This document shows positions 1-5,884 of a stretch of 6,089 bases of DNA, in pieces. The notes beneath the pieces were generated by a model. The model did no database searches and was not told the origin of the DNA. It was given only the letters and a program-made list of their open reading frames with translations. Each line of letters starts with the position of its first letter. Within the stretch, counting starts at the first letter, position 1. Source of the DNA: Candidatus Sulfotelmatobacter sp. (GTDB lineage Bacteria; Acidobacteriota; Terriglobia; Terriglobales; SbA1); the NCBI GenBank assembly GCA_030151135.1, contig JASLEQ010000210.1:1-6089 (forward strand), in the 5' to 3' direction. The position numbers and the translations under genes are program-made.

Positions 1-465
1 CCCTTCATCAAGAATGAAGAAGAAAAAATGGAGGAGGAAACGAAAAAGCTTCTGGGGCAAGTAAACGGCTCCAAAGTAATCCCCGGTGATTTTGGAATGA
101 GCGCGCAGTGCAACCGCGTCGCCGTCGAAGACGGACACACTGAGTCCATCTCCATCCGCCTCAAGAAAAAAGCAAAGGCTGAAGAAATCATCGCCGCCTG
201 GAATTCCTATCGCGCCGAGCCGCAGGAACTCAAACTTCCAAGCGCTCCCGAAAAACCAATCGTCTACCTCGAAGCCAGTGATCGCCCGCAGCCACGCTTC
301 GACGTCGATCTCGGTGCCGGAATGACCACCGCAGTCGGTCGCCTCCGGCCCTGCAGCGTCCTTGATTGGAAGTTCACGGTCCTCTCCCATAACACGATTC
401 GGGGCGCTGCCGGAGCCGCCGTCCTGAACGCCGAACTCTTGAAAGCCAAAGGGTATTTAGGATGA
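1..465 (+). CDS. asd: Aspartate-semialdehyde dehydrogenase, C-terminal part (5' end outside window)
   Basis: The reading frame is open from base 1 (PFIKNEEEK precedes the first Met at 28), so this is the C-terminal ~154 residues of a protein usually near 350 residues. The N-terminal NADP-binding region and catalytic cysteine lie outside the window. The segment SAQCNRVAVEDGHTESISI matches the archaeal/fungal-type ASADH signature. The His of DGHTE (codon 136-138) is the expected catalytic acid/base. The C-terminal features RPCSVLDWKFTVLSHNTIRGAAGAAVLNAELL are also typical of this family, whose members end soon after a GAAxxAxLNAE helix. The enzyme is cytoplasmic and reduces aspartyl-4-phosphate to aspartate 4-semialdehyde with NADPH, using the product of the next gene, lysC, 133 bases downstream on the same strand. 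Family assignment is confident; the subclass (archaeal/fungal-like versus E. coli-like) rests on motif memory. Confidence 0.95.
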   Translation, partial: PFIKNEEEKMEEETKKLLGQVNGSKVIPGDFGMSAQCNRVAVEDGHTESISIRLKKKAKAEEIIAAWNSYRAEPQELKLPSAPEKPIVYLEASDRPQPRFDVDLGAGMTTAVGRLRPCSVLDWKFTVLSHNTIRGAAGAAVLNAELLKAKGYLG

Positions 466-2900: not shown

Positions 2901-3587
2901 ATGAACCTGCTTCTTCTCGGCCGCGGCAAGACTGGATCCCAAGTCGCGGATATTGCTTCGGAACGAAAACATCACTTCCGCATGGTGGGTGCGAACGAAA
3001 ACGTTGCCGCCGCCGCGCTAACCACTGAGTCCCTCGCAGGCATCGATTGCATCGTCGATTTCACGGCACCACACTGCGTGCTCGCCAACATCGAGGCCTG
3101 CGTCGCCGCGGGAAAGAATATGGTCGTGGGGACAACCGGCTGGTATCAGGACATCGATCGCGTGCGTCGCTTAGTCGAGCGCCATAAAACTGGTTTCGTC
3201 TACGCGGCGAACTTTTCTGTTGGAGTGAATCTCTTTTTTGACATCGCCCGCACGGCTGCCACCGCCCTTCGCCACGAATATTCCGGTCAAATCTTTGAAC
3301 GCCATCACGCCCACAAGAAAGACGCACCCTCCGGAACCGCGATCGCGATCCAAAAAATCATTCACGACACCGATCACAAACATGAACCGCTCGAGATCAC
3401 CTCTTTTCGCGAAGGCGAGGTCGTTGGATTTCACGAAGTCATCTTCGAATCCCAAGCTGATCGAATTTATCTGAGTCACGACGCCAAGTCCCGCCGCGGC
3501 TTCGCCGAAGGTGCTGTTCGCGCCGCAGAGTGGCTCGTAGGCAAGAAAGGCTTCTACGATTTCAAAGACGTCTGGCATGAACTATAA
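2901..3587 (+). CDS. dapB: 4-hydroxy-tetrahydrodipicolinate reductase (short form)
   Basis: DapB reduces the DapA product to tetrahydrodipicolinate with NAD(P)H in the cytoplasm. Visible motifs: N-terminal Rossmann glycine motif GRGKTG (7-12), VDFT (52-55), GTTG (77-80), NFSVGVN (104-110), the signature ERHHAHKKDAPSGTA (133-147) and a C-terminal RRGFAEGAVRAAEWL. His135 and Lys139 correspond to the E. coli catalytic His159 and Lys163, and PSGT (143-146) binds substrate. At 228 residues it is shorter than E. coli DapB (273). It lacks the long loops after the first strand and before the FREGEVVGFHEV segment, like the compact forms known from Thermotoga-like lineages. The start ATG 2901 is supported by AGGA at 2891-2894. 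It begins the dapB-dapA-dapD run; 199 bases separate it from dapA. Confidence 0.96.
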   Translation: MNLLLLGRGKTGSQVADIASERKHHFRMVGANENVAAAALTTESLAGIDCIVDFTAPHCVLANIEACVAAGKNMVVGTTGWYQDIDRVRRLVERHKTGFVYAANFSVGVNLFFDIARTAATALRHEYSGQIFERHHAHKKDAPSGTAIAIQKIIHDTDHKHEPLEITSFREGEVVGFHEVIFESQADRIYLSHDAKSRRGFAEGAVRAAEWLVGKKGFYDFKDVWHEL

Positions 3588-3786: not shown

Positions 3787-4917
3787 ATGCAACTTCGTGG
3801 ATGTGGCACCGCACTCGTAACTCCCTTTCATCAAGACGGCTCAATTGACGACGCAGCTCTCCGCAACCTGGTCGCATGGCAAATTGAATCCGGAATTGAT
3901 TTCCTTGTACCCTGCGGCACAACCGGCGAGACTCCAACTCTCACTCACGATGAATGGCTGCACGTCATCGACACGACGATTGAAGTTGCTGCCGGACGCG
4001 TGCCCATCGTCGCCGGCGCCACCTCAAACGCCACCCACGAGGCCGTCGCCAAGGCACAGGAACTTGCCAGCCGGCCGGGCGTGGATGCGATTCTCACCGC
4101 ATCGCCGTACTACAACAAGCCTACGCAAGAGGGACAGTATCGCCACTTCAAAGCCATCGCCGAAGCCGTCGGCGACAAGCCGGTCATCCTTTACAACGTC
4201 CCCGGACGCACCGCCGCCAACATCGAACCCGCCACGCTCGTCCGCCTCGCCGAGATCCCAAATATCGTCGGCGTGAAAGAAGCCGGCGGCAACATGACGC
4301 AGATCGCCGAAGTCGCCGCCACCGTTCCAGAACATTTTTTGATCTTCTCCGGCGACGACGCCGTCACTCTGCCCGTCATCGCCCTCGGCGGCGTAGGCCT
4401 CATCTCCGTCGCATCAAACGAAATTCCCCACGAGATGTCCAGTCTTACCCGTGCCGCTCTATCGGGAGATTGGGCAACCGCGCGCAGTCTTAATCGCAAA
4501 TATCTATCGCTGATGCAGGCCAACTTCATCGAGTCCAGCCCGCTACCGGTCAAGGCCGTTCTCGCCATGATGGGCAAACTCGAAGAGGTTTACCGCTTGC
4601 CGCTCGTCCCCATGCGCCGGGACACCCGCTCAAAACTACAAAAGGTCGCCACCGAAGTCGGACTTATTACCAAACCTGCTCCCCCATCTCCCGACGCCGC
4701 GGAATTCTTCATCTACGAGAACTGGGTAGCAGGCCCGCACAAGATCGTCCTGCACCGCGGCACCTGCGGCCAATGCAGCCACGGCAAAGGACGCCCCGCC
4801 GGTCATGAAAATAATCACGCCAGATGGCACGGTCCCTACGCCACCCTGGCCGAAGCCCGAGAAACCGCCCACGCCATGTCCAACATCCTGATTCGCAGCG
4901 AATGCAAATGCGTGTGA
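3787..4917 (+). CDS. dapA: 4-hydroxy-tetrahydrodipicolinate synthase fused to a C-terminal Cys4 domain
   Basis: Residues 1-~295 of this 376-residue protein are a complete DapA, a class I aldolase-type TIM barrel that condenses pyruvate with aspartate semialdehyde. Key residues are present: GTTGE (44-48), SPYYNKP (106-112), YNVPGRT (136-142, Tyr136 and Arg141), GVKEA with Schiff-base Lys164, and FSGDD (187-191). At the allosteric lysine site, His54, Asn81 and Glu85 match E. coli His53, Asn80 and Glu84, but Trp57 replaces His56. E. coli DapA has 292 residues; here a Pro-rich linker (~295-306) leads into ~70 extra residues with CGQC (327-330) and CKC (373-375), listed separately. The fusion is in one uninterrupted frame. 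ATG 3787 is chosen because MQLRGCGTALVTPF is the usual DapA beginning; a GTG at 3721 would start in intergenic repeat-adjacent sequence. There is no good Shine-Dalgarno (only GAG at 3771-3773), so the message may be leaderless. Confidence 0.96.
   Translation: MQLRGCGTALVTPFHQDGSIDDAALRNLVAWQIESGIDFLVPCGTTGETPTLTHDEWLHVIDTTIEVAAGRVPIVAGATSNATHEAVAKAQELASRPGVDAILTASPYYNKPTQEGQYRHFKAIAEAVGDKPVILYNVPGRTAANIEPATLVRLAEIPNIVGVKEAGGNMTQIAEVAATVPEHFLIFSGDDAVTLPVIALGGVGLISVASNEIPHEMSSLTRAALSGDWATARSLNRKYLSLMQANFIESSPLPVKAVLAMMGKLEEVYRLPLVPMRRDTRSKLQKVATEVGLITKPAPPSPDAAEFFIYENWVAGPHKIVLHRGTCGQCSHGKGRPAGHENNHARWHGPYATLAEARETAHAMSNILIRSECKCV
4672..4917 (+). other. C-terminal cysteine-rich extension domain of DapA
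   Basis: This part encodes residues ~296-376. After the linker TKPAPPSPDAAE comes FFIYENWVAGPHKIVLHRG, then TCGQCSHGKGR, a His/Asn-rich stretch ending in ARWHGPYATLAEARETAHAM, and a C-terminal RSECKCV. Four cysteines (327, 330, 373, 375) in a CxxC...CxC arrangement plus nearby histidines suggest a structural zinc site. The pattern resembles small stand-alone proteins I recall from diverse bacteria (IYENW...H.G.CGFC..G.G...WHGPF..L..A......C..C), whose function I do not know. It is not part of the canonical DapA fold. It could aid tetramer assembly, metal-dependent regulation or partner binding; none of this can be told from the sequence. Confidence 0.7.
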
Positions 4918-5017: not shown

Positions 5018-5050
5018 TTGACAACGCGCCAACCCTCAATCAACAATCAA
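5018..5050 (+). promoter_or_regulatory. Possible dapD promoter with perfect -35 and tandem CAATCAA
   Basis: TTGACA at 5018-5023 is a perfect sigma-70 -35 hexamer. AACAAT (5042-5047, 4 of 6 matches) follows after 18 bases and would place the transcript start within a few bases of the dapD ATG at 5057. Overlapping it, CAATCAA occurs twice in tandem (5037-5043 and 5044-5050). There is no Shine-Dalgarno before dapD, consistent with a leaderless message. The -10 is weak, so the call is tentative. Confidence 0.35.
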
Positions 5051-5056
5051 CACTTC

Positions 5057-5884
5057 ATGTCCAACCTTAAAGCCGCTATCGAACGCCTCTCAGCCCAAGG
5101 TGAAGTCGAACGTGATCCCGACGCTCGCAAAATATTTCTGGAATTCCGCGATCAACTCACGCAAGGCAAAATCCGCGCCGCCGAAAAAGTGGACGGCGGC
5201 TGGATCGTCAACACCTGGGTCAAGCAAGGCATCCTCTTGGGGTTCCGTCTAGGTTCTCTTCAGGATATGTCCGCCGGCCTCTCCTTCATCGACAAAGACA
5301 CCTTCCCCGCCCGCCAATTTTCCGTATCCGACAAAGTCCGCGTAGTCCCCGGGGGCAGTTCCGCCCGCGTCGGCGCCTACATCGCTCCCTCAGTCATCTG
5401 CATGCCGCCAATGTTCATCAACGTCGGAGCCTACGTGGACGAAGGCACCATGGTCGATTCCCACGCCCTGGTCGGCTCCTGCGCCCAAATCGGCAAGCGA
5501 GTGCATCTAAGCGCCGCCGCTCAAGTTGGGGGCGTTCTAGAACCGATCAACGCCGCTCCCGTCATCATCGAAGACGACGTCCTGGTAGGAGGCAATTGCG
5601 GCATTTTCGAAGGAACTCTGGTGAGAGCAAGGGCGGTCCTGGGCGCAGGCACAATCTTGACGCGCTCCACCCCGCTCTACGATTTGGTAAAAGGCGAAGT
5701 CTACCGCGCAACAACCGAAGCGCCGCTGGAAGTTCCGGAGAACGCAGTCGTAGTCCCAGGTTCGCGAGCCGTAAAGAAAGGCAAAGCAGCCGACTGGAGT
5801 CTGTCGCTCTATACGCCTGTGATCGTGAAGTACCGCGACGAAAAAACGGACAAGGGAATCGAACTGGAAGACTGGCTGAGATAA
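5057..5884 (+). CDS. dapD: 2,3,4,5-tetrahydropyridine-2,6-dicarboxylate N-succinyltransferase
   Basis: DapD transfers succinyl from succinyl-CoA to tetrahydrodipicolinate, opening the succinylase branch to diaminopimelate. The protein has 275 residues (E. coli 274). The N-terminal helical domain (~1-95) includes [19 protein letters not shown] and LLGFRL. The left-handed beta-helix (~100-235) includes [15 protein letters not shown] (120-134), [14 protein letters not shown] (139-152), GGVLEP (158-163) and IIEDD (170-174). The C-terminal tail includes LYTPVIVK. Asp134 aligns with the catalytic Asp141 of the family. The position of Glu189 appears to be Gly182 here, although a nearby Glu185 is kept. 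ATG 5057 gives the family length; an in-frame TTG at 5018 would add 13 residues with no family match and overlaps a perfect -35 hexamer. No Shine-Dalgarno is visible. It lies 139 bases after dapA on the same strand. Confidence 0.96.

Follow-up and report, generated by a model that had tools for sequence, protein, structure and literature searches.

The dapA reading frame and its C-terminal tail

The window, i.e. the whole stretch of 6,089 nucleotides analyzed here (contig JASLEQ010000210.1 of Candidatus Sulfotelmatobacter sp.), contains, according to Pfam and NCBIfam matches, the end of asd followed by lysC, dapB, dapA and dapD, which together form a lysine/diaminopimelate cluster. A lysine/diaminopimelate neighborhood also surrounds dapA in the relatives, as far as their contigs reach, and the three genes dapB, dapA and dapD adjoin each other in the window as well as in many of the 35 related loci described below. 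No lysine riboswitch was found, as no Rfam family reached its threshold within the window. Between lysC and dapB, a reverse-strand frame of 186 residues (2158-2718) was observed, with a likely membrane segment identified by eye and no family at the curated cut-offs of Pfam and NCBIfam. The gap between lysC and dapB measures 28-198 bases in the 26 loci having both genes, except in L034 (1285 bases), and this is also the only one of the 35 loci with a tblastn match to the protein of the reverse-strand frame.

The dapA gene runs on the forward strand from the ATG at 3787 to the TGA at 4915-4917 (3787-4917), and translates into 376 residues with no internal stop. DapA, which starts the synthesis of lysine and of cell-wall diaminopimelate, serves as a target for drugs and herbicides and as a textbook case of an allosteric enzyme, and is usually seen as one barrel of about 290 residues. 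Here, the Pfam DHDPS domain (PF00701) spans residues 3-289 (E 2.9e-89) and the TIGR00674 dapA model residues 8-289 (E 1.6e-100), the latter with an equivalog score of 335.6 bits against a cut-off of 206.15 and covering positions 4-284 of 286 in the model. The frame then continues through a linker into a small domain rich in cysteines. The features that matter in the following are, all on the forward strand:

2901..3587, forward strand: dapB, the upstream neighbor of dapA, by family-profile matches
3787..4662, forward strand: DapA catalytic core, residues 1-292 (PF00701, TIGR00674)
4663..4701, forward strand: linker, residues 293-305 (13 residues), free in sequence but of nearly fixed length in the main clade
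4702..4914, forward strand: C-terminal cysteine domain, residues 306-376 (71 residues), based on AlphaFold2, pN/pS and stand-alone homologs
4714..4725, forward strand: YENW, residues 310-313, present in 119/119 listed fusions
4753..4776, forward strand: HRGTCGQC, residues 323-330, with an invariant His and the first cysteine pair, putative metal ligands
4825..4839, forward strand: WHGPY, residues 347-351, in predicted strand 3, ahead of the helix
4903..4911, forward strand: CKC, residues 373-375, the second cysteine pair, putative metal ligands
5057..5884, forward strand: dapD, the downstream neighbor of dapA, by family-profile matches (queried from the ATG at 5057, while the list of open reading frames puts its start at 5018)

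Within the HRGTCGQC segment, HRGTC corresponds to residues 323-327 (4753-4767) and CGQC to residues 327-330 (4765-4776). AlphaFold2 predicted the cysteine domain as strand-strand-strand-helix-strand (mean pLDDT 82.2, pTM 0.72), and it is thus predicted to fold by itself. An inspection by eye found no in-frame ATG, GTG or TTG between residues 279 and 315 from which the tail could be started separately. The earlier note had placed the tail at 4672-4917. The extension itself, of about 84 residues and with the cysteine motifs, WHGPY and HRGTC, stands as described there, but position 4672 falls inside the linker (residue 296).

The catalytic residues of the E. coli enzyme, given as Thr44, Tyr107, Tyr133, Arg138 and Lys161 in an excerpt of PMC5109050, have their equivalents in T45/T46, Y109, Y136, R141 and K164 of the window protein, as assigned by eye in the alignment to solved DHDPS. 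All of these are kept in 35/35 tailed and 32/32 tailless DapA sequences compared. The gene product is a normal DapA (4-hydroxy-tetrahydrodipicolinate synthase) with one C-terminal copy of an undescribed small domain.

Conservation and distribution of the fusion

By searching a collection with one genome per species with the tail only, we found 35 loci, all with Acidobacteriota-type record titles. A DapA core lies beside the tail in 35/35 of these, although a contig end cuts the core in some, and core and tail share a single open frame in 34/35, the frame being broken in L031. When residues 297-376 were scored in a protein search, 2490 proteins came up with E values of up to 0.01. Out of these, 120 were listed, including the window protein, and all counts for listed fusions refer to the other 119. 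The four cysteine positions are kept in 119/119 of these listed fused-length proteins, and two of the listed records (P0096 and P0097) have a tail identical to that of the window.

Calculated from 31 sequences, pN/pS was 0.142 in the core and 0.164 in the tail, compared to 0.458 in the linker. This set comprises the window and 30 of the 35 loci, leaving aside L004, L010, L017, L021 and L031, which are truncated, gapped or broken. The tail is thus under purifying selection of almost the same strength as the core. In the same 31 sequences, the two other forward frames of linker and tail contain 75 and 57 stops, respectively.

A misassembly, a frameshift or a gene-calling read-through that joins dapA to a neighboring small gene could in principle produce such a protein, and single cases of this kind do occur, namely the frame-broken L031 and the chimera-like P0043. 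Nevertheless, the fusion is found in 34/35 loci and in 46/150 genomes of a family sample (two sets that overlap in some genomes), and the stops in the alternative forward frames likewise speak against an artefact, to which we assign a negligible probability; it is refuted by the conservation of the fusion. Since the core is present in 35/35 loci, in one frame with the tail in 34/35, and P0096 and P0097 have identical tails, the joining of DapA and tail is neither due to chance nor to the reading frame. The true domain fusion proposed in the earlier note is therefore borne out, as relatives keep both DapA and tail and the tail is under purifying selection. Given this conservation and these pN/pS values, neither absence of the tail from close relatives nor relaxed selection, both named there as refuting, was seen. 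A common, already described DapA tail, also named, did not turn up either, as none in the libraries searched describes it. As for P0043 (127 aa), it combines the start of an NAD-binding dehydrogenase with the end of a tailed DapA on a contig of 2351 bases, and is perhaps an assembly chimera.

For the distribution, we took 150 genomes of the family to which one relative belongs. Among these, 46 had the domain on DapA, with one tail match per tail-bearing genome, five had a weaker match outside DapA and 99 had none. A dapA gene was found in 143/150, and 97/143 of these stop near residue 300 with no domain; among these 97 tailless sequences, three are partial and some extend beyond a stop in the six-frame match. 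A linker about 100 residues longer and rich in Ala, Pro and Glu precedes the same domain in two tailed genomes out of the 46, G431 and G435 (loci L122 and L123). Wider samples gave four fusions in 200 genomes of the class, and the same four in 247 and 396 genomes of the phylum. As these four were already part of the family sample, the fusion is restricted to one family as far as sampled, making it the property of one lineage rather than a general feature of DapA. Scoring covered part of the first-look candidates, e.g. 29/72 in the class, 14/43 in the 396 phylum genomes and 37/55 in the family, and weak copies may therefore be missed.

Two further candidates were discarded. The weak genome matches L049-L055 (E 3e-4 to 0.009), from the class and phylum samples, were taken as noise, the combination of CxxC and WxGP in frame being found only in L054 and L055, where it looks chance-like by eye. 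Secondly, several tailless relatives have another gene after dapA (named by eye), from which came the idea that the tail tracks dapD. This was ruled out, as dapD occurs in 141/150 family genomes versus 46 with the tail, and also adjoins tailless dapA, e.g. in G488 and G526.

Relatives and origin of the cysteine domain

A tail profile search returned 512 matches at E up to 1 and, among the 120 listed, stand-alone proteins together with many truncated DapA ends. The small stand-alone cysteine proteins that the earlier note mentioned do therefore exist. These unnamed proteins (P0227-P0258, mostly about 72-81 residues) carry YENW, HxxxCxxC, WHGP and CxC at the spacing of the window tail, and both order and spacing of the motifs are common to the window tail and 22 stand-alones in one alignment (A4), while the 28 stand-alones placed in another (A5) have an identity of 42-57% to the window tail. 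Equivalents of H323, C327 and C330 occur in 119/119 listed fusions and 32/32 stand-alones. The first position of CKC is Cys in 19, Asp in 7 and His in 6 of the 32 stand-alones, and the last position is Cys in 32/32. Genomic context was readable for few stand-alones; the one in L128 adjoins murA (identified by eye).

More divergent relatives were found on Bradyrhizobium and Mesorhizobium plasmids (L056 and L118, the Bradyrhizobium frame being interrupted by a stop), on an IMG/VR contig (L119) and in G532. As in the tail, they have YENW-like, HxxxCxxC and WxGP motifs, but the second pair is CxxC in the divergent relatives L118 and L126, as opposed to CxC in the DapA fusions. In the PLSDB table, itself incomplete, no annotated gene corresponds to either plasmid copy. 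On the IMG/VR contig, the stand-alone (about 3836-4225) lies between a gene with DnaG-primase domains and one with NACHT and FGE-sulfatase domains, so the cysteine-domain family also occurs in mobile or defense-like surroundings. G086 (L129, 3557-4426), whose DapA is tailless, encodes a 290-residue protein that has the cysteine domain at its N-terminus, a C-terminal part of unknown family and, as judged by eye, a likely membrane segment.

In a tree of 69 DapA cores, comprising 35 short-linker tailed, two long-linker and 32 tailless sequences (out of 97), a single branch (100/98) separates the short-linker tailed sequences from all others. The long-linker sequences are placed elsewhere and two changes are needed, but a single tailed clade gave a p-AU of 0.358. 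The domain tree splits 28 DapA-borne copies (25 short-linker and three long-linker, with the 142-residue record P0077 taken as long-linker by eye) from 33 stand-alones (100/99). The same split (100/99) was obtained with 21 DapA-borne copies, the larger set consisting of these plus L101 and L116, which end in SECRC and not SECKC, and five more. The divergent L119, L126 and L129 were left out of both trees; a tree including them was poorly resolved, and one clade of DapA-borne copies gave a p-AU of 0.224. Two independent captures were considered and rejected, given that the test did not reject a single tailed clade (p-AU 0.358) and that all DapA-borne domains included in the domain tree fall on one side. 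The simplest reading of the trees would be that DapA captured a stand-alone domain once, and that the domain was later lost in some lineages or the linker changed. The broader proposal, that an undescribed zinc-binding family was captured once by DapA in an Acidobacteriota lineage, and that the C-terminal helix then adapted to hold the domain, is possible but, in our view, distinctly short of probable.

Possible roles and comparison with known systems

The tail domain is probably zinc-binding. The four cysteines in 119/119 listed fusions support the zinc-binding module suggested in the earlier note, as does the exchange of the third cysteine, in stand-alones, only with Asp or His (32 stand-alones), which is as expected of a metal ligand. 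On the other hand, the long-linker locus L123 (G435) lost one cysteine, the second one (C330) being replaced by Tyr. The mechanism we propose also involves a stretch at the end of the core:

4603..4644, forward strand: C-terminal helix stretch, residues 273-286 (..LVPMRRDTRSKLQK), the proposed docking surface

R270 and Y310 are separated by a distance of 40 in 118/119 listed fused proteins (one was not parsed), in 32 of the 35 loci (39 in the other three) and in 27 out of 30 family loci (39 in two and 42 in one). The core window 273-286 ranked first of 279 on two counts, namely how much tailed and tailless DapA differ and how much conservation the tailed form has gained. Residues 277, 278, 279, 282 and 285 are among the ten core positions that differ most between the two. 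Mean entropy at 274-289 was 0.47 in tailed versus 1.12 in tailless sequences, compared to 0.44 versus 0.68 in the rest of the core. R278 is found in 34/35 tailed and 0/32 tailless sequences, and Ser282 and Gln285 each in 33 versus 2. Five of the ten most different positions lie within 273-292 (hypergeometric p 1.8e-4), and still five of the top 20 (p 0.007), the region being chosen after seeing the data in both cases. Since the helix signal depends on a single split between clades, lineage drift may account for it. The near-fixed linker length and the changed core helix suggest a contact of the tail with DapA.

From these two features, i.e. linker length and remodeled helix, we therefore propose a zinc-held module. 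The domain would bind one zinc via CxxC and CxC, possibly also via the invariant His, and the fixed-length tether would let it pack on the remodeled C-terminal helix (RRDTRSKLQK) of its own subunit. Once docked, the module might stabilize or tune the DapA tetramer, or offer its YENW/WHGP surface to a partner, with the catalytic chemistry of DapA taken as unchanged. In E. coli DHDPS, the C-terminal domain is important for the quaternary structure. We consider the chances about even that a zinc-held module docks on the C-terminal helix and stabilizes, tunes or connects the tetramer. Counting against such a module are the 97/143 dapA-bearing family genomes without tail. The full-length model has a pLDDT below 50 in 247-255, 264-278, 296-303 and 330-344, among others, and is too uncertain at 241-300 to confirm docking. 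Docking and Cys4 site are also not universal, since R278 is replaced by E or D and S282 by A in the long-linker lineage (G431 and G435), and the second cysteine is Tyr in G435.

The same surface motifs allow another reading, in which the domain binds not DapA but a separate partner, e.g. a lysine or cell-wall enzyme or a regulator, and the stand-alones bind this partner as well. YENW, H323 and WHGP are common to fused and stand-alone forms, in one lineage the tether is longer by about 100 residues, the domain is also N-terminal on the 290-residue protein of G086 with its likely membrane segment (by eye), and dapB, dapA and dapD adjoin in the window and many of the 35 loci. The near-fixed tether length and changed helix in the main clade instead suggest an intramolecular contact, and the tail (46/150) does not follow dapD (141/150). 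We regard such tethered recruitment as possible but rather unlikely.

Position 56 of E. coli DHDPS is, in the excerpt of PMC5109050, His or Glu in lysine-sensitive and Lys or Arg in insensitive enzymes; Trp is not covered there. The equivalent residue 57 of the window DapA (3955-3957) is Trp in 35/35 tailed and 30/32 tailless sequences, and as both groups have it, with no contrast, there is no support for the tail replacing lysine feedback. Two other lysine-site positions do differ in frequency, with His at 54 in 33/35 tailed versus 15/32 tailless and Asp at 85 in 28/35 versus 7/32, so that such a replacement is conceivable. Most lysine-site positions, including Trp57, are alike in the tailed and the tailless form. 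Control by lysine may therefore be the same in both, which would leave room for another input. For example, the cysteines could free zinc or form disulfides upon oxidation or zinc shortage and thereby switch DapA activity. Four cysteines in 119/119 listed fusions, on the first committed enzyme of the pathway, would agree with such a metal or redox sensor. Yet structural zinc sites are equally conserved, one fused lineage has lost the second cysteine and positions 54 and 85 differ, so that we regard a sensor as improbable.

Finally, the tail could be a passive appendage with no functional gain, kept only because its loss would destabilize the adapted helix. It is found in part of one family among the sampled genomes, and relatives live without it. 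With selection on the tail almost as strong as on the catalytic core, and with the motifs common to the stand-alones invariant or nearly so, this is very improbable. The single capture of a zinc-binding domain by DapA, with the helix adapting to it, would, if true, mean a new control or physical organization of the first committed lysine/diaminopimelate step, beside or replacing lysine feedback. A conserved, probably metal-binding domain on DapA, found in one group of soil Acidobacteriota, may offer a way of pathway control in soil bacteria.

With regard to known systems, both the architecture and the cysteine domain are undescribed in the libraries and open papers searched, while the enzyme itself is known. 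The tail domain has no clear match in Pfam, NCBIfam or PDB sequences, and none of the open PMC papers that matched searches for the DapA fusion describes it by title or start of abstract (subscription papers being outside this scope). DUF4170 (PF13773) weakly matched 7/25 members of the domain alignment (best E 0.019) but not the window tail at E up to 1, and the shared part may be a generic GPF-x-T-x-x-EA strand-helix motif. Structural comparison with MbtH-like proteins (6ea3_A, 5ja1_B) gave a low Z, of a level common for unrelated folds, and the MbtH family is absent from the Pfam matches of both window protein and domain alignment. Classical zinc ribbons and rubredoxin-like proteins have two CxxC pairs (CxxC...CxxC), whereas the second pair of the DapA fusions is CxC, which sets them apart. 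Residues 3-289 of the window protein fit nearly the whole DapA/DHDPS family model (PF00701; TIGR00674; solved 6mqh, 3flu, 1dhp/1yxc), and the best solved relative is aligned over residues 2-293. The best 60 of 78 solved DHDPS have 289-330 residues and none is aligned past window residue 294, the 84-residue C-terminal extension being what the window DapA has in addition to those listed. The stand-alones are separate short genes, whereas the domain in the window is fused to DapA instead. This fusion is the sole case found with the domain on a protein of known function, and thereby gives a handle on an unnamed family of small proteins.
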